From: Tritonibacter multivorans
GTDB taxonomy: Bacteria; Pseudomonadota; Alphaproteobacteria; Rhodobacterales; Rhodobacteraceae
Reading direction: 5' to 3'
Length of the DNA stretch: 64,000 bases
Assembly (NCBI RefSeq): GCF_001458415.1
Contig: NZ_CYSD01000020.1
Location: forward strand, 62,001-126,000
Position 1 is the stretch's first letter, and each line of letters starts with the position of its first letter. Below the pieces are notes generated by a model. That model saw nothing but the letters and a program-made list of their open reading frames with translations, did not search any database and was not told the DNA's origin. Below are positions 20,003-62,294 of this stretch, piece by piece. A program made the translations under genes and the position numbers.

Positions 20003-21910
20003 ATGCAGTCCGTCGAGGAACTTCGCGACATCCTTTCGCAATTGCAGGAAGAACTGAAAAGCCGGCGCGAGCAGGCGGCCCAGTCGGAGCTGCTGTTGTC
20101 CGGTATTGAGAGCCTCTTGTCGACCGAGGCGGGGTCAGACCCTTTTGCCATTGCCTTCCAGTCGCTTGGTTGCATTTTGCAACATGACGATGCCCTGGCC
20201 CTGGTGGCCGAGCGGCGGACCGAGGCAAGAGGCAAGTCCGGTGACGATCTTCTGTGTGTGTCGGCCACCCAAAAGTCGGCTCTGGGGCGTCGGGTTCAGC
20301 CCGACAAAATCTTGAAAAAGGTGCTTGCGGGGCGCGTTGCGTCGGGTTTGGCGGGGGCGGCCAGTCCGATTGTGACGGGCGAAGATCGGGCCGCGCTGTA
20401 CCTGCCCATCAATTTTGGGGAAACGCGCGGGATCGTCGTGCTGTGGCGCAATGCAGACAAAGATGGGTTTGGTCGTCAGGACATTGCCTTGGGGCGCCGG
20501 TTTGCGCCCCTGACCAATCAGGCCCTCTCTATGCGCGATCGTGCGCGCACCGAGGAAACCAACCGCATGTTGCGTGTCCAGTCACGGGAACTGGAAAAAC
20601 AGGCGCATTTCGACACGCTGACCGGGCTGCCCAACCGGATCAAGATCGACATGATCTTGGAGGACGCGATTGCCAATGGTGGGGCCGACGACCGGTTTGC
20701 CCTGGCGTTTTTGGATGTGAACAAGTTCAAACGGGTCAATGACTACTACGGGCACGAAATCGGCGATGCATTGTTGCTGTCGGTGGCCGAGCGGCTCAAT
20801 ACGCATTTGGGCGAGGGCGATGTCGCAGCCCGGATCAGCGGGGATGAGTTTCTGCTGCTGATCCGCTCGGTTCCGGATCGCGCTGAACTGGGGTTTTTCA
20901 TCGACCATCTGGCCGAGGTTCTGAGCAACACTCACAGCCTCAGGGGGTTTTTGATCGACGCCTCTTCGGCAATCGGCGTCAGCAGGTTTCCCGAAGATGG
21001 CACCGATCAAGTGCAGCTGCGCCGGGCGGCGGATATGGCAATGTATCGCTCCAAAGCATCTGGTGGCGCTTTGCCGGTGATTTTTGACGCTGGTATGGCC
21101 CATGAGCTGACGGCAAAAATGGAGCTGGAGACGCGGCTGCACGACGCGATTGAGCGCGAAGATTTCGTCCCCTTTTTCCAGCCCAAGATCGACATTCGAA
21201 ATGGGGCGCTGCATGGGTTTGAAGTGCTGCTGCGCTGGCGCACCGGGGAGGCCGAATATACGGCCCCCGGCGCGTTCCTCTCAACAGCCGAGGAACAGGG
21301 ATTGCTGGACAGGATCATGTTTCAGGCGGTGCGCAAATTGGTGGATGACCTGCCGTTGCTGACCGGCCGTTTCGGCCGAAAGGTCAAGCTGTCGATCAAT
21401 GTGACCCCGACGCAATTGAAGGACCGCGAGTTTATGAAACGGCTTTTGGCGTTGCTGTCATCGGCAGAACTGCGCGGGCGCTTGGTTCTTGAAATCACCG
21501 AAGACGAAGCTTTGGATGTGGAGCTGTTTCGCACCCATATTCAACCCGAACTGGCACGGAACGAGATTTTGGTCTCCATTGATGATTTTGGAACCGGATA
21601 CTCCAATCTGGCGCAGCTGGCCGCCCTGGAGGCCTATGAGCTGAAAATCGATCGTGCTTTGATCGCTGGGATCCACCGTGATCCGGCCAAACAGCAGATC
21701 GTGTCGATGATCTGCGCGATTGCGAGGAATGCAGGAGAGAAAACCGTTGCGGAGGGCGTTGAAGATCCGGAGGACCTGGATTTCCTGCGCCACCATACGG
21801 CGGTGGACATGGTGCAGGGCTATATTTTTGCGCGGCCCATGCCCCTGGCGGACCTGCTGGTCTACAGGTTTCCGGATGCCGCTTGGGACAAACCCGCGCA
21901 CTCCGCCTAG
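20003..21910 (+). CDS. Cytosolic GGDEF/EAL cyclic-di-GMP protein
   Basis: 635 residues. An N-terminal coiled coil (1-35) leads to a GAF-like region (about 45-175), a second short coiled coil, GGDEF (about 200-355) and EAL (about 375-620). The cyclase signature is RISGDEF (Ser for the first Gly) and there is no RxxD inhibitory site in place. The EAL domain reads EVL, keeping the catalytic Glu, and the other metal and catalytic marks are present: SINVTPTQL, LEITEDE, DDFGTGYSN, LKID, AEGVED, QGY. I predict an active phosphodiesterase and a doubtful cyclase. It is co-transcribed with the FIST sensor. Its stop codon overlaps that of the convergent GGDEF/EAL gene in a shared CTAG. Confidence 0.92.
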   Translation: MQSVEELRDILSQLQEELKSRREQAAQSELLLSGIESLLSTEAGSDPFAIAFQSLGCILQHDDALALVAERRTEARGKSGDDLLCVSATQKSALGRRVQPDKILKKVLAGRVASGLAGAASPIVTGEDRAALYLPINFGETRGIVVLWRNADKDGFGRQDIALGRRFAPLTNQALSMRDRARTEETNRMLRVQSRELEKQAHFDTLTGLPNRIKIDMILEDAIANGGADDRFALAFLDVNKFKRVNDYYGHEIGDALLLSVAERLNTHLGEGDVAARISGDEFLLLIRSVPDRAELGFFIDHLAEVLSNTHSLRGFLIDASSAIGVSRFPEDGTDQVQLRRAADMAMYRSKASGGALPVIFDAGMAHELTAKMELETRLHDAIEREDFVPFFQPKIDIRNGALHGFEVLLRWRTGEAEYTAPGAFLSTAEEQGLLDRIMFQAVRKLVDDLPLLTGRFGRKVKLSINVTPTQLKDREFMKRLLALLSSAELRGRLVLEITEDEALDVELFRTHIQPELARNEILVSIDDFGTGYSNLAQLAALEAYELKIDRALIAGIHRDPAKQQIVSMICAIARNAGEKTVAEGVEDPEDLDFLRHHTAVDMVQGYIFARPMPLADLLVYRFPDAAWDKPAHSA

Positions 21911-23991
21911 CCGGCAGAGGACTGACGTGCGGTGCCATGCACGTCAGCAACCTCGCCGCGGCGCAAGACGGATTTCAGGGATTCGGCGTCCATAGGGCGG
22001 AAATAGCGAAAGCCCTGCAGCATGGTGCACCCAAGGCTGCGCACCAGTTCGGCCTGTTCATCGGTTTCAACCCCTTCGCACACGGTTTCGATTCCGAAGG
22101 TTTTGGCAATGCCAAGCATGGATTCAATCAAGGCGCGCTCTTTGCGGGAATGGGGGGCGGCGGCGACGAACCGCCGGTCGATTTTCATCACATCCGGCGA
22201 CACCCGCAGCAAACCTGCAAGCGAAGAATGTCCGGTGCCGAAATCGTCAATGTGAATGCCAACGCCCAGTTCGCGCAATTCGTCGATGCGCCATATGACA
22301 CGTTCGCCAAGATCATCCAGGTAAGCCGATTCCAGAAGTTCCACCACCAGGCGAACGGGGCTGTCCTGCATCGATTTCACCACCTCCATCAGATCGGTTT
22401 CCATCAGCCGTTCGACAGAGACATTGACCGCAAGATGCGGCAACTCAGGCAGGTCTGCGACCTCCAAAATGACCTCTATTGCTTGGGTCAGAATGGTCCG
22501 GTCGATAAAACGCATCAGCTTGAGTTCTTTTGCCAGCGCGAGGAAATGATCGGGGCCGACAAGGCCGCGGACGGGATGCTGCCAGCGCGACAGGACCTCG
22601 ATCCCGCGGATCTTGCCGGTTTGCGCATCGACGATCGGTTGGAAAAAGGGAACAAACTCTGCGCGTTCCAAACCCTGTTGAATTTGGTCGGTCAAGTCCT
22701 TGCGTTCGATGACGGCGCGGCGCTGGGCTTCGTCAAATTCGATCCACTGGTTTTTGCCGTTTCCCTTCGCCTTATAAAGCGCAATATCCGCCTGAACGAG
22801 GGTCTCCAAAAGATCGCGATTGTTCCTGTCGTGATAGGCAATCCCGATGGAACAGCCGACGCGGACGGTTTGCCCTTCGAATTCGCTGGGCGCGCGCAGG
22901 GCCGGAATCAGCGCGTCCGCCAGCTGTTTGGCCGAGGCCGCAACATCGGTGTCTGCGACAAGAACGGCGACAAATTCATCCCCACCGATGCGTGCAATGC
23001 CCCGGCAGGCCCCGCCCACCGCGCGCAGTCGCGTGGCCACAACCCAAAGCACATGATCGCCTGCTTTGTGGCCCAAGGTGTCATTGATCTGTTTGAACCC
23101 ATCAAGATCCATATGCAGCAGGGCCACCCGGCGTGGCGTATCGAGCCTGTTTTCCCGATCCAGTTCCTCAAATAGGTTCATCAAGGCCCGGCGGTTCGGC
23201 AGGCCTGTCAGCTCATCAAGGACCGCCTGTTTGGCAATGCGTCGGCTGGCCTCTGCCTCGGCCTCAACAGAGATCAAAGTCCTGGCGTTCTTTTTCAGGA
23301 AGGCGACCGCTGTGGCCAGTCGCCCGACCTCGTCTTCGCGGGATAGAAACGGCACGTCACGGTCCAGATCCCCGCCGGTGACGTCATCGATCACCTGCGT
23401 GATGTCGTGCAAGGGGCGGATCACGCTGCGCAGCACAAAGGCAATCATCAGCCCCAGCAGGCTGAAGCTGATCACCTGCAGCAAAACGGTCTCGCGGCGG
23501 GTGGTCTGCAACAGGGCCTGGGTCGGCGCAATAGAGAAGCCCGTGACCAAAACGCCGATCTGATTGGTGTCGTTATAGACAATGGTCTGTTTGAACAGCA
23601 CGCTGCCGCCAAGTTCCAGAACCGGGCTTTCGCCGGACGCGGCGAAGGTGTTGGCAATACGGGACAGATCCGCGTCGGTGGCGAGGGCCGGGGTTTCGGC
23701 AAAAGGCATATCGTCGGCAAGGATCAGGCCAAATGTGAACCCCTCGATATGGGCGAAACCCGTCATGATTTCGCGGGCCTGTTCGCTGTCAAAGGTCCAG
23801 ACAGCCTTGGCCACCGCGTCGGCGATCACAACAGTGGTTTCTTCACCGCGCAAATAAAAACTGCTTTCGATTTCAGTTTGGAAGCGGGCCAGCCAGCTGC
23901 CTGTGTTTGCTGCGGCAACGGCAATCAGGCCCAGCATGCAGGGCACGATCAAACGCCAAAGCAATGATCCACGAAACGTCCGGATTGGCAT
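21907..23991 (-). CDS. Membrane GGDEF/EAL cyclic-di-GMP protein with HAMP
   Basis: Start placed at MPIRTFRGSLLWRL (GGGGGC upstream), giving about 694 residues; an upstream ATG at 24099 would add 36 residues before the membrane helix and is less likely. Two membrane helices (about 10-30 and 165-190) enclose a periplasmic sensor. HAMP follows, then GGDEF with intact IGGDEF and EAL as EVL with NVSVERL, VELLES, DDFGTGHSS, MKID, CEGVET and LQGF. Both enzyme halves look competent. Convergent with the FIST-linked GGDEF/EAL gene; the two stops share CTAG. Confidence 0.9.
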   Translation of the reverse strand: MPIRTFRGSLLWRLIVPCMLGLIAVAAANTGSWLARFQTEIESSFYLRGEETTVVIADAVAKAVWTFDSEQAREIMTGFAHIEGFTFGLILADDMPFAETPALATDADLSRIANTFAASGESPVLELGGSVLFKQTIVYNDTNQIGVLVTGFSIAPTQALLQTTRRETVLLQVISFSLLGLMIAFVLRSVIRPLHDITQVIDDVTGGDLDRDVPFLSREDEVGRLATAVAFLKKNARTLISVEAEAEASRRIAKQAVLDELTGLPNRRALMNLFEELDRENRLDTPRRVALLHMDLDGFKQINDTLGHKAGDHVLWVVATRLRAVGGACRGIARIGGDEFVAVLVADTDVAASAKQLADALIPALRAPSEFEGQTVRVGCSIGIAYHDRNNRDLLETLVQADIALYKAKGNGKNQWIEFDEAQRRAVIERKDLTDQIQQGLERAEFVPFFQPIVDAQTGKIRGIEVLSRWQHPVRGLVGPDHFLALAKELKLMRFIDRTILTQAIEVILEVADLPELPHLAVNVSVERLMETDLMEVVKSMQDSPVRLVVELLESAYLDDLGERVIWRIDELRELGVGIHIDDFGTGHSSLAGLLRVSPDVMKIDRRFVAAAPHSRKERALIESMLGIAKTFGIETVCEGVETDEQAELVRSLGCTMLQGFRYFRPMDAESLKSVLRRGEVADVHGTARQSSAG

Positions 23992-24415
23992 TACGCCCCC
24001 AGTCTCGCATCGCAGGATGCAGATCTGTCGGGCGGGACCGAGGGGGCGGATGCACCCCAAAGGAGGAGGGGCCGAAGCACATCCATGGGCAACCTTCACA
24101 ATTTAACACACAGGTTTCAGCCTAGTCGCTCCGGGTTTCGAAGCCCTTAAAACGCCTGCCCAACGGCTTCGAATTCGTCGGATGCAGGCGCAAGGACCAA
24201 CGATGTCGCCTGACACTGGCCTGCAGAACCGATCCGGCAGAAAACCATGACATCGGTCTGTTCAGGCCGTGTTGGGCGCAGTGGACGACCTGGCGGCGGG
24301 GGTGTTTTCCCCATGCTGACCTTTCGACAGGACTTGGTCTGCGGGCGATGATTTAACCGTTTGCTTTGCCATTTTACGGTCAGATTGCTACTCTGTCCGG
24401 CAGGAGTGTTTCGAG
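23992..24415. other. Noncoding gap upstream of the SiaABC-cyclase operon
   Basis: About 420 bp between divergent genes, expected to hold the promoters of both the membrane GGDEF/EAL gene and the sensory operon. I see no RNA gene, repeat or assured promoter. Confidence 0.4.
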
Positions 24416-25192
24416 TTGTTTGTTTCGCGTATCCAAATTACAGCGGCCGTGCTGGCCGTTCTGCCTAGTGTTGCACCGGCTGAAGAGGCGCCGGTGGACC
24501 TTGTTGTGTCCACTTTGGAATGGCCCCCCTATACCGGATCGCACCTGCCCGGTGAGGGTGCCGCGAGCGAAGTCTTGCGGGCGGCGATTGCAGCAGAGAC
24601 CCCCGAGGCGGAGGTGGAAATCCGGTTTCTTCCCTGGAACCGTGCGGTGGCTTTGGCGCGGGATTCAGAGGCGGTTCACGCCTATTTCCCCGGCTACGAC
24701 TGCACCCATGAAGAGGGGTTTGTATCTTCTGCCCCGTTTGGGGCCAGTGTCCTTGGCTTTGCCGAACCCAGACCACACCCTTTGAACTGGCGTGTGCTGG
24801 AAGATCTTAGCGGGTTACCGCTCAAATTCGGCACTGTCCTTGGTTATCGCAATACAAAAGCCTTCGACGACATGGTGGCGCAGGGAGCGCTGCAGGTGCT
24901 GTCTGCGAAGGATGATGTCACCAATCTGCGCCGCCTGCTGGCCGGGCGCGTGGATGCCGTCGTGATTGACCAGCGGGTGATGCGGTATTTGGTGCGCACG
25001 GAACCCAGCCTGTGGGCCCAGAAAATCCGGATTGGTTTCAACGCAAAACCCTTGGCCGAGCAACCCCTGCACGTCTGCTTCAAAGACGATGCCAAGGGAC
25101 GGGAATTGCGCGATCGTTTTGATCGCGGCTTGGCCTCACTCGACCAGAAAGGAGCGATGATCGACGCCTATATCCAACGCGAATTCCAATAA
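24416..25192 (+). CDS. Periplasmic solute-binding protein, SBP family 3-like (first copy)
   Basis: 258 residues from a TTG start with AGGAG nine bases upstream; no suitable ATG precedes the signal peptide. The Sec signal is short (ITAAVLAVLPSVAPAEE). The mature fold resembles polar amino acid binding proteins: LEWPPYTGSHLPGEGAASEV, then FLPWNRAVALA, VLGYRNTKAF and RLLAGRVDAVVIDQRV. No ABC permease or ATPase is nearby. A similar protein and a SiaA-like phosphatase follow, so a ligand-presenting role for the membrane sensor is my inference. Confidence 0.82.
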   Translation: MFVSRIQITAAVLAVLPSVAPAEEAPVDLVVSTLEWPPYTGSHLPGEGAASEVLRAAIAAETPEAEVEIRFLPWNRAVALARDSEAVHAYFPGYDCTHEEGFVSSAPFGASVLGFAEPRPHPLNWRVLEDLSGLPLKFGTVLGYRNTKAFDDMVAQGALQVLSAKDDVTNLRRLLAGRVDAVVIDQRVMRYLVRTEPSLWAQKIRIGFNAKPLAEQPLHVCFKDDAKGRELRDRFDRGLASLDQKGAMIDAYIQREFQ

Positions 25193-25238
25193 GACCTCGC
25201 GGGCCTAGGTCACGCAGAGGCGAGAGGAGGGAAAGACA

Positions 25239-25985
25239 ATGCGCAAGATCCGTTTGGTGATTGCACTCAGTGTCGCGCCTTTTGTGATCCCGTTTTGGGC
25301 GGCAGCCGAAGGGGTTACGGTGTTGACGGGGAACGACTATCCGCCGTTTGCAGATGAAACATTGCCCGAAGGGGGGCTGGCCACCGAAGTGGTGCGCCGC
25401 GCGTTTCTTCAGATGTCAGAGCCAGTGGAAATCCTGTTTCGCCCGTGGGAACGCGGAATGGTGGAAACGCAGGCTGGCAAATATCTGGCAACCTTTCCCT
25501 GGAGCTACAACGCAGAGCGGGAAAAGACGCTGGCCTACTCCGAGCCGCTTTATACCTTCAGCCAGTATTTCTTTACCCGCGCTGAGGCGCCGTTCCGGGG
25601 GATAACCGAAGCCGACCTGCAGGGCGCGCGGCTGTGTCTGGCGCTGAGCTATAACACCTCTGGGCTTGAGCAATTGGTGGAGGCCGGGGTGATAACCCTT
25701 GTGCGGCCGCAGACGCTGTCAAATTGCTTTCAGATGATTGCTGCAAACCGTGCCGATGTGGTGCGGGTCAATGACCGGATCGGCTGGACCACAGTGGACA
25801 ATCTTGGTCTGGAGCGCAGCGCCTTTCGTATGATCGAAGAGCCCGTGCGCACCTCTGTCCAGCATGTTCTGTTCAGCCGGGCCCATCCCGAAACCGAGCG
25901 ACTGTTGGCCGGGTTCAACGCGGCGTTGGAGGCCCTGAAGGCCAGTGGTGCCATCGACGAGGTCATGTCCAAGCATCTGAAATAA
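25239..25985 (+). CDS. Periplasmic solute-binding protein, SBP family 3-like (second copy)
   Basis: 248 residues. Signal peptide to about residue 23 (FVIPFWAAAEG). The mature start VLTGNDYPPFADETLPEGG and the motif FRPWERGMVETQ align with the same elements in the preceding gene, so the two are distant paralogues arising by duplication. GAGAGGAGG lies before the ATG. The gap to the SiaA-like gene is 22 bp. The ligand is unknown. Confidence 0.84.
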   Translation: MRKIRLVIALSVAPFVIPFWAAAEGVTVLTGNDYPPFADETLPEGGLATEVVRRAFLQMSEPVEILFRPWERGMVETQAGKYLATFPWSYNAEREKTLAYSEPLYTFSQYFFTRAEAPFRGITEADLQGARLCLALSYNTSGLEQLVEAGVITLVRPQTLSNCFQMIAANRADVVRVNDRIGWTTVDNLGLERSAFRMIEEPVRTSVQHVLFSRAHPETERLLAGFNAALEALKASGAIDEVMSKHLK

Positions 25986-26007
25986 CAACCAAGGGAAGGG
26001 GGGCATT

Positions 26008-27609
26008 ATGGTCAGACCGATCCCCAAGGGATACCGCAAGAGCATCAGCACCGACTTCAGCCTCGCGCTGATGGCGGTGATCGCCACGCTGCTGATCGGC
26101 TTTGCAGTGGTTGCGGGGATTCTGGCGGTGGGCAAGGCAGAGCGGCGCTTGCAGGCCTCGCTGGCCTCTTACCAGGCGCTGGCCGGATCGGCGCTGGCCT
26201 CTTCGGTCTGGAATTTTGACACCCGCACCGTGCAGGGCTTTGTCGCGGCCCTGTTGCTCGACGAAGAGGTGGTGCTGGCCAGGGTGTCATCCGAAGGCAG
26301 CGTGCTGGCACAAGGGGGGCAAGACGCCTTGTTGGCGCGGCCGCTGGACGCGGTCTTGGCAGATACCAGCCTGCTGAGCGGCGGTCTGGATCTGGTGCAC
26401 GAGGGCGAAACCATTGGCCGCTTTACCATCGTGCTGAGCCGGGCAGGTATCCGCGAGAGCGCCTGGGCGCAGATCTGGCAGATTGCCACCGTCACCGTGT
26501 TGATCCTGATGGCCATCGCGGTGGTGTCCTTCATGGTGGCGGGGCATTTCGTGGCAAAACCCCTGCGGCGGTTGCAGGCGCTTGCGGCGCGGATCGCCGA
26601 GGGCAAACTTGACCGTCCGGTCGCGGCCTATCGCGATGACGAACTGGGCGCGTTGTCCGGCAGTCTGGAACGCATGCGCCGGTCTCTCAAGACGGTTCTG
26701 AATGACCTGCGCCATGCCAATGATGATCTGGCCGAAGCCAATCGCACATTGGAGGCCCGTGTCGAGGCGCGCACCGAAGAGCTGACGCAGGCCAATTCAG
26801 AACTGCAGGACGCCAATCGCATGATTGTGGACAGCATCCGCTATGCCAGCCGCATTCAAGACGCGGTCTTGCCCAGTCCCGAGGTGTTGGGCCGGGCCGT
26901 CGACAGCTATTTTCTGATGTGGGAACCCCGCGATCTGGTCGGTGGGGATTTTGTCTGGTTCCACAATGGCACGACGCAGGATGTGATCATTGTGGGGGAT
27001 TGCACCGGGCACGGCGTGCCGGGAGCCTTTATGACGCTGATCGCGGGCACGCTTCTGGACCGGATGTTCACCGCGCAACCGGACAGCGGCCCGGCAGAGG
27101 TTCTTGGAACCCTGAACTCTGGGTTGAAGCGCATCCTCAGTCAGGAAGAACCCACCTCCACGCCGCTGGCCACGGATATGACCGATGATGGCATGGACGC
27201 CGCCGTTTGCATGGTGGACCGGGCCGCGGGGCGGATGCGCTATGCGGGGGCACGCCTGTCGCTCTGGCGGTCCTGTGACGGCGAAATTGACGAGATCAAA
27301 GGCGATAAACTGGGGCTTGGCTACCGCCGCTCACCGATGGAGGCCCGCTTTACCGAACACGAGCTGTCTCTGGACCGGGCGCAGGCGTTTTACCTTGCCA
27401 CGGATGGGATCATTGATCAGGTCGGCGGCGCGCGGTCGCTGTCGTTCGGGCGCAAGCGGTTCCGGCGTGCGCTGGCCGCGCAGCACAACCGCGACATGGC
27501 CGCTCAGGGCGCGCATCTGCAGCAGATTTTCAAAGACTATCAGGGCGGCCAGATCCGCCGCGATGACGTGACGGTACTGGGGTTTTCGACAGCGGGAGCA
27601 GCGATGTGA
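26008..27609 (+). CDS. SiaA-like membrane PP2C/SpoIIE phosphatase with HAMP
   Basis: 533 residues. Membrane helices at about 18-41 and 158-179 enclose a periplasmic domain of about 115 residues. HAMP is at about 180-232, a coiled coil at about 233-275, and the SpoIIE-type PP2C phosphatase at about 290-527. Metal-binding acids sit in VGGDFVW (D314), VGDCTGHGVPGAF (D331), YLATDGIIDQ (D466) and RRDDVTVL (D519/D520). In Pseudomonas SiaA removes phosphate from SiaC in answer to an outside signal. Gene order and 4-bp overlap with the kinase gene support the same role. Confidence 0.9.
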   Translation: MVRPIPKGYRKSISTDFSLALMAVIATLLIGFAVVAGILAVGKAERRLQASLASYQALAGSALASSVWNFDTRTVQGFVAALLLDEEVVLARVSSEGSVLAQGGQDALLARPLDAVLADTSLLSGGLDLVHEGETIGRFTIVLSRAGIRESAWAQIWQIATVTVLILMAIAVVSFMVAGHFVAKPLRRLQALAARIAEGKLDRPVAAYRDDELGALSGSLERMRRSLKTVLNDLRHANDDLAEANRTLEARVEARTEELTQANSELQDANRMIVDSIRYASRIQDAVLPSPEVLGRAVDSYFLMWEPRDLVGGDFVWFHNGTTQDVIIVGDCTGHGVPGAFMTLIAGTLLDRMFTAQPDSGPAEVLGTLNSGLKRILSQEEPTSTPLATDMTDDGMDAAVCMVDRAAGRMRYAGARLSLWRSCDGEIDEIKGDKLGLGYRRSPMEARFTEHELSLDRAQAFYLATDGIIDQVGGARSLSFGRKRFRRALAAQHNRDMAAQGAHLQQIFKDYQGGQIRRDDVTVLGFSTAGAAM

Positions 27610-28175
27610 CAGACAATATGGGAATAGACGCAAAAGAGCTTTACCAGCTGCGCAGCTATCTGCGGGACCGGGGCATCCTGTTTGCCTATAGCGGCTATGT
27701 GACGGAAACCGTGCTCAGCGGTGTTGGCGAAGCGCTGCGCCAGAAACTGGCCCTAGAGGCCACGGACACAAAGACGGTGCGCAGTGTGTTCGCCATATTT
27801 GTGGAGCAGATGCAGAACATCATCCGCTATTCGGCCGAGACAGAGCACAAGGACGCAGGCAACGCGCGCGAGCTGCGCTATGGCGTGCTGACGGTGGCGC
27901 AGACCGGCGAGCGTTACGCGGTGCACGCAGGCAATGTCATCCATCGCGCCGATCAGCCACGGCTGGAAACCCGGCTGGCGGCTCTGGTGGCGATGGACCG
28001 CGATGCGTTGAAAAGCGCGTACAAAACCCAGCTGAAGGCCGGGCCCGAACCGGACAGCAAAGGCGCCAGTGTCGGGCTCATTGAAATCGCGCGCCGCGCC
28101 TCTGCCCCGTTGGGATATGGGTTCACGGCGGTGGATGAAGATCATGTGTTTTTTGCAATCGAGGCGCGGATATGA
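27606..28175 (+). CDS. SiaB-like protein kinase
   Basis: 189 residues of the SiaB family (GHKL-type ATPase fold). The N box is FVEQMQNIIRYS (E67, N71) and the glycine motif is SKGASVGLIEIARRAS (152-166). The family phosphorylates SiaC on a Ser/Thr, opposing SiaA. Overlaps of 4 bp with the genes on both sides show tight translational coupling. Confidence 0.88.
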   Translation: MTDNMGIDAKELYQLRSYLRDRGILFAYSGYVTETVLSGVGEALRQKLALEATDTKTVRSVFAIFVEQMQNIIRYSAETEHKDAGNARELRYGVLTVAQTGERYAVHAGNVIHRADQPRLETRLAALVAMDRDALKSAYKTQLKAGPEPDSKGASVGLIEIARRASAPLGYGFTAVDEDHVFFAIEARI

Positions 28176-28588
28176 GTACGAACCCTTTAAACCTGCCCGC
28201 ATTTCAGATCGCCGCCACGGATCGGTCCCCACATGTGGATTTCGATTTCGACGCAGGCCGCCTGCGGATGCGCGGGGAATCCTACCCGGAGGATGTGACC
28301 AGTTTTTACCGCCCCGTCCTAGACGCCTTGGACAAGTATTTTGGCGCGCTGGGCACAGGAGACTGCCGGTTCGAACTGTCGCTGATCTATTTCAACAGCG
28401 CCTCGGCCAAGGTGATCATGTTCCTGATGGAAATGCTGGATGCGGCTGCCGCCAAAGGCGCAGCTGTGGACCTGTTTTGGTACTATGACCCCGAAGACGA
28501 CACCATGCAGGAGCTTGGGGAAGAATTCGGCGAAGATCTGGAGCACGCGCGTTTTCACCTGGAGGCCATGGTGCGCGATGCAGAGTAA
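28172..28588 (+). CDS. SiaC-like regulatory phosphoprotein
   Basis: 138 residues, SiaC (DUF1987) family, STAS-like fold. The conserved region FELSLIYFNSASAKVI (about 67-82) carries the likely phospho-acceptor; by analogy with Thr68 of Pseudomonas SiaC it should be Ser76 or Ser78. The unphosphorylated form of SiaC activates the diguanylate cyclase SiaD. Here the next gene is a class III nucleotidyl cyclase, overlapping by 11 bp, so that enzyme is the probable target. Confidence 0.9.
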   Translation: MSTNPLNLPAFQIAATDRSPHVDFDFDAGRLRMRGESYPEDVTSFYRPVLDALDKYFGALGTGDCRFELSLIYFNSASAKVIMFLMEMLDAAAAKGAAVDLFWYYDPEDDTMQELGEEFGEDLEHARFHLEAMVRDAE

Positions 28589-29624
28589 GGAACTGTTTGC
28601 CCGTGAAGAGGCCGTTATCACCGCTGCCCGCAACCGGCTGGCCGAACCCTTTGCCTCCGAGGAGGCACAGGCGCAGTTTGCTCAGCTGCTGGCGGATTAT
28701 GAGAAGCTGTTGAAAATCACCTGGCGGTTCATGCGTCTGTCGGACCGCAATGAACGGGAAATGGCCGCTGCCAATGACCGCGCCCACCGCAGCAGCGCGG
28801 AGCTGCGGCAGAAAAATCAGGAACTTGAGTCCATTTCTGCAAAGCTGTCGAAATATCTGTCCCCGCAGGTCTATGCCTCGATTTTCTCGGGCAAGCAGCG
28901 GGTGGAGTTGGCCAGCCAACGCAAGAAGCTCACGGTGTTCTTCTCGGACATTCACGGGTTCACGCAGATCACCGATCAGATGGAATCCGAGGACCTGACC
29001 GAGCTGATCAACCACTACCTGACCGAGATGGCCGAGGTCGCGCTGGAACATGGGGCGACGATCGACAAATACATGGGCGATGCGGTTATGGCGTTCTTTG
29101 GCGACCCCGAAAGCCGCGGCCTGCAAGAGGACGCCTGTGCCTGCGTGCGCATGGCGCTGGCGATGCAGGAACGGCTGTCGAAACTCTCTGAGGTCTGGCG
29201 CAATCAGGGGATCGACCAGCCGCTGACCTGCCGGATTGGCATCCACACCGGCTATTGTACGGTGGGCAATTTCGGCAGCGCAGAGCGGATGGATTACACC
29301 ATTGTCGGCGGCAATGTGAACCTTGCCTCGCGGCTGGAAAAAGACGCCCCGCCGGGGGGCGTGCTGATATCGCATGACACCTTTGCCCTGGTGCGCGACG
29401 AAATCCCCTGCGAACATCGCGGCCCGATCCGCCCGCGTGGGCTGGCCTATCCGGTTGAAACCTATCTCGCGCTTAGCCCACGCGACGCGGCCGCACGGGG
29501 TGATGGGAAGCTGTCGCTGCAACTGGCCCATCTTGCGCTGGATGCGGATCTGAACGCCATGACACCACAGGAACGCAGCGAGGCCCGCCTCGCCTTGGGG
29601 CGGGTGCTGGATCAGTTCGGCTGA
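28578..29624 (+). CDS. Class III adenylate cyclase, output of the SiaABC module
   Basis: 348 residues from the ATG at 28578, inside the end of the siaC-like gene. A helical N-terminal part with coiled coil (about 55-95) precedes a class III cyclase domain (about 115-295). Both metal Asp residues are present (FFSDIHGFT, D124; KYMGDAVMAFFG, D168). Purine-selecting residues are Lys164 and Asp239 (MDYTIVGG), which predicts ATP, and the transition-state pair is Asn248/Arg252 (NVNLASRLE). There is no membrane segment. I infer that dephosphorylated SiaC-like protein controls cAMP synthesis through the N-terminal helices. Confidence 0.9.
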   Translation: MQSKELFAREEAVITAARNRLAEPFASEEAQAQFAQLLADYEKLLKITWRFMRLSDRNEREMAAANDRAHRSSAELRQKNQELESISAKLSKYLSPQVYASIFSGKQRVELASQRKKLTVFFSDIHGFTQITDQMESEDLTELINHYLTEMAEVALEHGATIDKYMGDAVMAFFGDPESRGLQEDACACVRMALAMQERLSKLSEVWRNQGIDQPLTCRIGIHTGYCTVGNFGSAERMDYTIVGGNVNLASRLEKDAPPGGVLISHDTFALVRDEIPCEHRGPIRPRGLAYPVETYLALSPRDAAARGDGKLSLQLAHLALDADLNAMTPQERSEARLALGRVLDQFG

Positions 29625-30022: not shown

Positions 30023-30099
30023 TGGTAGCGGAGGAGGGACTTGAACCCCCGACACGCGGATTATGATTCCGCTGCTCTAACCAACTGAGCTACTCCGCC
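30023..30099 (-). tRNA. tRNA-Met, elongator (anticodon CAT)
   Basis: 77 nt on the minus strand. Acceptor GGCGGAG pairs with CTCCGCT using one mispaired end, CCA is encoded, the anticodon stem GCGGA/TCCGC holds loop ATCATAA, and the T-loop is TTCAAGT. The body matches the usual alphaproteobacterial elongator Met tRNA rather than initiator or the lysidine-modified Ile tRNA. Confidence 0.94.
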
Positions 30100-61358: not shown

Positions 61359-62294
61359 TTAACGATCGGCGTGATAGGGGGTCATCAGCGCCGCCGGATT
61401 TCGGGACCTTCCGAACACACCCGACACAGCCAAAACTGTCAGCAGATAGGGCAGCGCAACCAACGCCTGGGTCGGGATCGGCAAGTCAAAGAGTTGCAGG
61501 GACAGGGCCAGCGCATCCATCGACGCAAAGCCAAAGGCCGCAAGGATGGCCAGGTAGGGGTTCCAGCGCGCCAGGATGACGATACCCAGTGCTATGAAGC
61601 CCCGCCCTTGAACAATCGTGTCACGGAACAGGCCGATCTGGACAAGCACAAAGTAGGCTCCGGCCAGACCTCCACCCAGCCCGCAGGCCAACACGGCGAT
61701 GATCCGCATCCGTACCACATTGATACCTGCAGCTGCAGCTGCCTTGGGGTATTCCCCAACGGCCCGCAGGTTCAGCCCAAGGCGGGTGCGGTACATCAGC
61801 CAGCCGGTCCCCAGCGCGATCAGGATTGTGATGTAGAACATAACAGACTGTCCAAAGAGTGCGGGTCCGATCAGCGGCAGATCCTTCAAACCGGGTACGG
61901 AAATTTCAGGCATCATCGGCGCCGTCTGAATGCGCGGGATATCCCCCATGATCGTGCGAAACGCATAGCTTGCGATGCCCATGGCCAGCACATTGAAGAT
62001 AATGCCGACAACCACCTGACTGGCCTTGACCACGACGTACATCCAAGCAAGGAAAACGTTGACCAACATGCCCATTCCGGCGGCAGCCAGCGCCCCGATC
62101 CAGGGCGAGCCGCTCCAGATCGCGCCCAGATAGGCGGCCAAAGCACCCAGCAAAACAGTGCCTTCAATCCCGACGTTCAAAACGCCCGCGCGCTCGCTGA
62201 TCAACTCGCCGATGCTCGCCAAGAGCAACGGGCCGGTCAGACGGACCGACGCAGCGATCCATGTGGTCAGAAAGGCAAGCTCAGGGATATCCAT
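61359..62294 (-). CDS. Nucleoside-type ABC transporter permease (NupQ/YufQ-like)
   Basis: 311 residues from MDIPELAFLTTW, which begins directly after the upstream permease's stop. About eight membrane helices. The run SIGELISERAGVLNVGIEG and SQVVVGIIFNVLA are typical of BmpA-linked importers of purine nucleosides. The substrate need not be a nucleoside. Confidence 0.9.
   Translation of the reverse strand: MDIPELAFLTTWIAASVRLTGPLLLASIGELISERAGVLNVGIEGTVLLGALAAYLGAIWSGSPWIGALAAAGMGMLVNVFLAWMYVVVKASQVVVGIIFNVLAMGIASYAFRTIMGDIPRIQTAPMMPEISVPGLKDLPLIGPALFGQSVMFYITILIALGTGWLMYRTRLGLNLRAVGEYPKAAAAAGINVVRMRIIAVLACGLGGGLAGAYFVLVQIGLFRDTIVQGRGFIALGIVILARWNPYLAILAAFGFASMDALALSLQLFDLPIPTQALVALPYLLTVLAVSGVFGRSRNPAALMTPYHADR

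Follow-up and report, generated by a model that had tools for sequence, protein, structure and literature searches.

A probable SiaABC partner switch acting on class III cyclases through a portable docking stalk

Results and Discussion

A stretch of 64,000 nucleotides from Tritonibacter multivorans (contig NZ_CYSD01000020.1 of assembly GCF_001458415.1, forward-strand positions 62,001 to 126,000; hereafter the window) carries, at positions 24416–29624, relatives of the SiaA phosphatase, SiaB kinase and SiaC phosphoprotein of Pseudomonas aeruginosa, followed by a gene for a predicted class III adenylate cyclase. The output of the Pseudomonas SiaABCD system is a diguanylate cyclase (GGDEF) enzyme, SiaD, and the locus raises the question of whether the switch controls the cyclase or merely adjoins it. 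An earlier sequence-only reading had proposed that the same switch is re-plugged to cyclic AMP (cAMP). This proposal is supported by the N-terminus of the cyclase, whose product is predicted from sequence and which bears the SiaC-binding stalk motif of SiaD. Taken as a whole, the data are best explained if the SiaABC switch controls the cyclase through this docking stalk, which we consider highly probable. By homology, the locus likely belongs to a conserved branch of SiaABC partner switching that is devoted to cyclases and uses a docking stalk found to be portable between enzymes.

The docking stalk and its probable interface with SiaC

The features that bear most directly on the contact between SiaC and the cyclase are:
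28172–28588, + strand, SiaC-family phosphoprotein (PF09345, 133 bits, E 6.9e-39)
28397–28399, + strand, Ser76 codon of SiaC, aligned to phosphosite T68 of Pseudomonas SiaC
28578–29624, + strand, class III adenylate cyclase (predicted) with SiaC-docking stalk (ATG start, 348 residues)
28698–28763, + strand, putative SiaC-docking motif in the stalk (residues 41–62; core RLSDRNE, residues 53–59, at 28734–28754)

Residues 41–59 of the cyclase read YEKLLKITWRFMRLSDRNE, where R80, S82, D83 and R84 of SiaD (7e6g sequence) are identical, and the core RLSDRNE corresponds to RISDRYQ in Pseudomonas SiaD. Against a profile drawn solely from GGDEF stalks, the stalk region reaches 41.4 bits; a profile was required, as a phmmer search of PDB sequences with the isolated stalk as query returned three weak matches only and did not recover SiaD. 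In the SiaC–SiaD crystal structure, T68 of SiaC is flanked by both helices of the stalk and forms bonds with S82 and Q86, while Y65, N67 and S69 touch Q86 and D83, E110 meets R84, and D114 meets basic residues located higher on the stalk (PMC8457831). Because the cyclase carries a SiaC-docking stalk, its link to SiaC goes beyond gene overlap alone, and we infer that the contact between the two proteins is direct.

The residues of this interface are well conserved. Y65 and N67 of SiaC are found in all 120 alignment rows, and the T68 position is Ser or Thr in 120/120; it is Ser in all 41 rows of cyclase-linked SiaC. The window SiaC has N75-S76, the invariant Asn followed by Ser at the T68 position. 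Of the two phosphosites suggested earlier, Ser76 is the one aligned with T68, and Ser78 aligns with S70. On the stalk side, D83 is present in 97/97 rows, S82 in 88 and R84 in 90. Over all 97 pairs, mutual information between SiaC and the stalk at contact pairs exceeded that of relabelled columns (p 0.006 in one run and 0.008 in another).

Association of the stalk with SiaC across genomes

Cyclase loci were scanned as the best 80 of at least 548 confirmed candidates, which sample the closest kin of the window enzyme. Of the two search patterns, one was the docking motif, which biases the scan to stalk cyclases, not to adjoining SiaC. A siaC gene lies within ~2 kb of the cyclase in 28 of the 80 loci, and in L197 siaB is present and the contig ends where siaC would be. 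The conserved adjacency that had been proposed as a check is therefore found, in Alphaproteobacteria, Gammaproteobacteria, Magnetococcia and Desulfovibrionia, and the SiaC–cyclase arrangement is widespread, not local. Adjacency conserved across classes, together with the docking stalk, makes a chance neighbour unlikely, as had been argued from the gene overlaps.

The stalk profile was built from 26 GGDEF N-termini only and applied at E<1e-3 (Z=10000). It matches all 28 SiaC-linked cyclases of the scan and that of L197. In a survey of SiaC loci (90 further SiaC stretches plus the window, 91 in all, scored with local profiles on either strand), it also matches 12/12 cyclases and that of L120, 19/20 HD proteins and 4/4 histidine kinases; two of these 12 cyclases also occur in the scan. 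The stalk is found in none of the 51 scan cyclases without SiaC, of which 49 are fair controls, as contig ends cut the N-termini of L150 and L200 to 60 and 28 residues. When every cyclase frame of the 80 loci was scored (87 frames, including the second cyclase of L155), the result was the same: 29 carry the stalk, every one in a SiaC- or SiaB-bearing locus, and four other cyclases in the stalk-cyclase loci are without it. The 29 stalk cyclases comprise 16 from Alphaproteobacteria, nine from Gammaproteobacteria, three from Desulfovibrionia and one from Magnetococcia. The motif as a regular expression catches only 20 of the 28 SiaC-linked cyclases, the remainder bearing variants. In six loci (five Porticoccaceae and one other Cellvibrionales), siaB and siaC lie on the opposite strand and the stalk is kept, with siaC off the contig in L197.

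SpoIIE proteins encoded directly behind siaC showed no stalk with the same profile (0/5). In L099, L113 and L133 (family f188), siaC is followed by such a stalk-less SpoIIE gene, which places the phosphatase downstream.

Co-occurrence was examined in 398 genomes with at most 14 candidates scored per genome, so that stalk counts are lower bounds. SiaC was found in 67 genomes and the stalk in 61; 58 have both, three the stalk only, nine SiaC only and 328 neither. Among the stalk-only genomes, G169 and G558 are near the threshold and G738 matches at 1e-6; among those with SiaC only are some whose SiaC match is weak or truncated (G462, G730 and G793). SiaC is patchily distributed, being present in 3/295 genomes of a draw from the family and 14/385 of a draw from the class (the window genome is in both). 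The window genome encodes eight class III cyclases and one SiaC, and its single stalk match up to E=1, with all 33 candidates scored, is on the operon cyclase. In one locus (L174), two frames share the SiaC match and two the SpoIIE match, possibly owing to frameshifts or assembly errors.

Heptad spacing between stalk and catalytic part

The docking motif is joined to the catalytic part by a segment of regular length:
28755–28853, + strand, heptad-spaced linker, probably a coiled coil (residues 60–92, from the docking motif to the KYLSPQ anchor)

In the window cyclase, the spacing from the motif Ser to KYLSPQ is 37 residues. Among 42 measured stalk cyclases (including two repeats, L094=L139 and L104=L214), the spacing from the motif Ser to the catalytic anchor is 23, 30 or 37 in 38, that is, in all 38 of the window's type, and these values are equal modulo 7. 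GGDEF proteins show spacings of 21, 28, 35 or 49 in all 26 measured (of 28 proteins), and HD proteins 49 or 56 in all 13 measured (of 20). If each distinct length is counted as one event, the probability of chance agreement is about (1/7)^6, uncorrected for kinship. On the opposite side, in proteins with a recognised start motif, the docking motif mostly lies 50 residues away (range 41 to 68), and this distance changes in non-heptad steps; one value, -65, is misassigned. Heptad quantisation is what a parallel coiled coil transmitting the effect of a clamp would require.

The catalytic part of the cyclase

28920–29477, + strand, cyclase catalytic domain (D124, D168, K164, T241, N248, R252)

PF00211 was the sole domain found in the cyclase by Pfam search (94 bits, scored on a longer frame starting at 28440), with no GGDEF domain, and the best PDB match is CyaB (3r5g, E 4e-69). 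The metal residues D124 and D168 and the Asn-Arg pair N248/R252 are all present, and with K164 they bear out most of the active site listed in the sequence-only reading. The exception is D239, which had been paired with K164 as the purine-selecting residue: alignments give K164/T241, since counting back from N248/R252 lands on T241, seven residues before N248. T241 is invariant in 30/30 alignment rows. A Lys/Thr pair is the substrate pair of class IIIb adenylate cyclases. The enzyme fits a class III cyclase with an adenine-selecting Lys and Thr/Asp pair, and cAMP is its predicted product.

Organization of the probable operon and a possible periplasmic input

The remaining features of the locus are:
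24416–29624, + strand, probable operon of, head to tail, two solute-binding-protein-like genes and SiaA-like, SiaB-family, SiaC-family and class III cyclase genes
24416–25192, + strand, solute-binding-protein-like gene 1, possible input (TTG start)
25239–25985, + strand, SBP_bac_3 solute-binding protein 2, probable input (PF00497, E 2.7e-11)
26008–27609, + strand, SiaA-like HAMP-SpoIIE (PP2C) phosphatase (PF07228, 74 bits; PF00672, 47 bits)
27606–28175, + strand, SiaB-family kinase (NF038262, 190 bits, cut-off 85)

The gene set and overlaps described in the earlier reading are present, and the names agree with Pfam, NCBIfam and PDB sequence searches. Its interval also takes in the two solute-binding-protein-like genes, on which that reading did not comment. 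The siaA-siaB and siaB-siaC overlaps are 4 bp each and the siaC-cyclase overlap is 11 bp. The phosphatase matches SiaA (6k4e) with an E-value of 1.4e-40, the kinase matches 6kko chain A (E 2.4e-21; FVEQMQNI aligned to YIEMTQNI of SiaB), and the phosphoprotein matches 6kko chain C (E 1.3e-19). Scores are below the NCBI equivalog cut-offs for SiaA (NF038263), SiaB and SiaC (297/700, 121/225 and 94/150 bits, respectively). The region is very probably a six-gene signalling operon, a degree of belief that we attach jointly to the operon and to the mechanism proposed below.

The first gene product has no Pfam match; it scores 162 bits against an iterated profile grown from the neighbouring solute-binding protein, which had come to include it. 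For the second, the best matches of known structure are amino-acid binding proteins, with E-values no stronger than 1e-6. Elsewhere, the SiaA phosphatase and solute-binding domains form a single fusion protein (L069, L072, L110, L117, L183, L190, L201 and L208, by local profile), and in L183, L190, L201 and L208 the fusions adjoin stalk cyclases. Pfam searches of six fusions (L072, L110, L183, L190, L201 and L208) found two to four SBP_bac_3 domains and SpoIIE in all, mostly with PAS. Because such domains are fused to SiaA elsewhere and the two binding-protein-like genes lie directly upstream of siaA here, their products may feed SiaA, which suggests a periplasmic ligand as its input.

Proposed mechanism and alternatives

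The active site of class III cyclases is built between two catalytic domains. In the mechanism that we favour, ligand-loaded periplasmic binding proteins would control how active SiaA, the membrane phosphatase, is, and SiaA and the kinase SiaB would, by homology, set the phosphorylation of SiaC at Ser76. Unphosphorylated SiaC would dock on the RLSDRNE stalk, as the shared interface residues suggest, and would keep the coiled coil of the parallel stalk dimer in its active phase, pairing the catalytic domains for synthesis of cAMP. Phosphorylation of Ser76 would then release SiaC and turn the cyclase off.

Several observations weigh against control through the stalk. The window stalk departs from SiaD at R74 (Ile), Y85 (Asn), Q86 and M88 (both Glu), and R90 and D91 (both Ala), and shows one docking motif where SiaD has two; the window SiaC departs at S69 and I71 (both Ala) and R103 (Thr). 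Within classes, covariation does not exceed that of relabelled columns (p 0.08 for cyclases, 0.14 for non-GGDEF proteins, 0.37 for GGDEF and 0.56 for HD), so the signal over all pairs, although suggestive, adds little as proof. Nine of the 67 SiaC genomes have no stalk match, and at 22 of the 91 surveyed SiaC loci the examined stretch lacks a stalk protein. The other four stalk cyclases, all from the survey and of one distinct lineage, have a spacing of 34, and four histidine kinases (23, 44, 53 and 53) share no common phase.

A different sign of control is one alternative: SiaC could dock but inhibit the cyclase, or simply tether it to the SiaA membrane complex, with phosphorylation activating or relocating the enzyme. 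The sign of control is known for SiaD alone (PMC8457831). Class III catalytic domains are able to dimerise by themselves, so that a clamp on the stalk could also hold the wrong phase. The heptad spacing to the catalytic part, common to GGDEF and HD effectors, fits a shared activating dimer better, and we regard inhibition or tethering as unlikely. The product might also be cyclic GMP or another nucleotide, as the specificity is read from sequence only; with K164 and the invariant T241 in place and the five best solved relatives all named adenylate cyclases or CyaB, this is distinctly improbable.

Least probable of all, to a degree that we would give it little credence, is that the stalk is a generic dimerising coiled coil, with siaC a mere operon neighbour whose true target lies elsewhere in the genome. 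Many cyclases are preceded by helical linkers, and Pseudomonas SiaC acts on a diguanylate cyclase. A generic coiled coil is made unlikely by the 0/51 controls (49 with an intact N-terminus), although many of these SiaC-less relatives share a KNxxLExLSxKL segment before the catalytic part. Furthermore, the sole stalk found in the window genome is on the operon cyclase, and the linkage of SiaC to stalk cyclases survives gene rearrangement at the six loci noted above.

The stalk on other effector classes

In the survey, 69 of the 91 SiaC stretches contain a stalk protein: 28 GGDEF proteins, 23 HD proteins, 13 class III cyclases and five histidine kinases, with a Pfam check made on ten of the downstream proteins. 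Signalling enzymes of at least four kinds appear to share this docking plug. We lean slightly towards the broader view that SiaC is the switch of a general plug-and-socket system, in which a homologous stalk has been spliced onto class III cyclases, diguanylate cyclases and GAF-HD proteins, all three in heptad phase, and onto histidine kinases, and in which one SiaC could set several outputs together where stalk proteins outnumber SiaC proteins. Such an excess is seen in 10 of the 61 stalk-positive genomes (G682, G691, G694, G709, G728, G748, G752, G774, G777 and G829).

In these stalk-rich genomes (G694, G752, G777 and the other seven), several stalk proteins are on contigs other than that of siaC, a hub-like pattern, and some of the assemblies are incomplete. 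In L046 (7109–8374, from the window's family), siaB and siaC precede a gene for a small PF00027 cyclic-nucleotide-binding protein, with no stalk protein in the stretch; it may be a cAMP read-out or another use of the switch, and the SiaC there is very divergent. L122 (6063–7760) encodes a stalk cyclase of the second lineage with a C-terminal PilZ domain, combining nucleotide synthesis with possible sensing of cyclic di-GMP (c-di-GMP). In L062 (1416–2024), a hemerythrin-domain protein is encoded behind siaC, and its first residues resemble the start of stalk proteins.

Evolutionary history

In the SiaC tree, the window sequence belongs to a branch of 19 rows, all of them cyclase-linked, with a Shimodaira-Hasegawa-like approximate likelihood ratio test (SH-aLRT) value of 95. 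Starred branches of this tree require the cyclase label to change at least three times; the tree rests on few columns, and 53 of its 114 inner branches are open. Starred branches of the catalytic-domain tree (92 rows, L094 omitted as a copy of L139) force at least two changes; there, the stalk cyclases are not a single clade and the placement of the window enzyme is not settled. Both trees are quick, with many open forks, and label changes cannot separate gain from loss; it may well be that the SiaC switch and class III cyclases became paired on more than one occasion.

Relation to known systems

The window locus shares with SiaABCD of P. aeruginosa the phosphatase, kinase and phosphoprotein families in identical order, the T68-equivalent position and R80, S82, D83 and R84 of the stalk. 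It differs in its output (a class III cyclase with one docking motif rather than a GGDEF enzyme with two), in Ser for Thr at the phosphosite, in the two binding-protein-like genes in front, and in its scores relative to the NCBI equivalog cut-offs given above. With CyaB-type class III cyclases (3r5g) it has the catalytic domain and Lys/Thr pair in common; its N-terminus is the docking stalk, whereas SiaC-less relatives in the scan have other, mostly longer N-termini. As far as PMC8457831 describes them, the HsbR-HsbA-HsbD and Bgr systems likewise place a STAS-like switch protein on a second-messenger enzyme, but with the STAS family and c-di-GMP in place of the SiaC family and predicted cAMP.

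SiaC-family (DUF1987) proteins have been proposed generally to modulate adjacent proteins (PMC8457831). SiaD is the sole effector named in PMC7278518 and in the accessible portions of PMC7647112 and PMC12834913, and no description of a SiaC–cyclase pairing was found in the open-access literature searched. If the proposed control is correct, phospho-partner switching is tied to cAMP, and one crystal structure becomes a rule, in which a sequence-recognisable stalk predicts the enzymes that obey SiaC. The role of the SiaC family would become testable in bacteria whose adjoining enzyme is something other than a diguanylate cyclase, and the heptad-spaced modules would offer a natural set for studying the switching of unrelated catalytic domains by a clamp on paired helices. 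A search for ligands is suggested by the binding-protein domains fused to SiaA.

Two neighbouring genes flank the operon in the window. A gene for a GGDEF-EAL protein, named by its translation only, is divergent from it (21907–24099, - strand), and a tRNA-Met gene lies just past its end (30023–30099, - strand).

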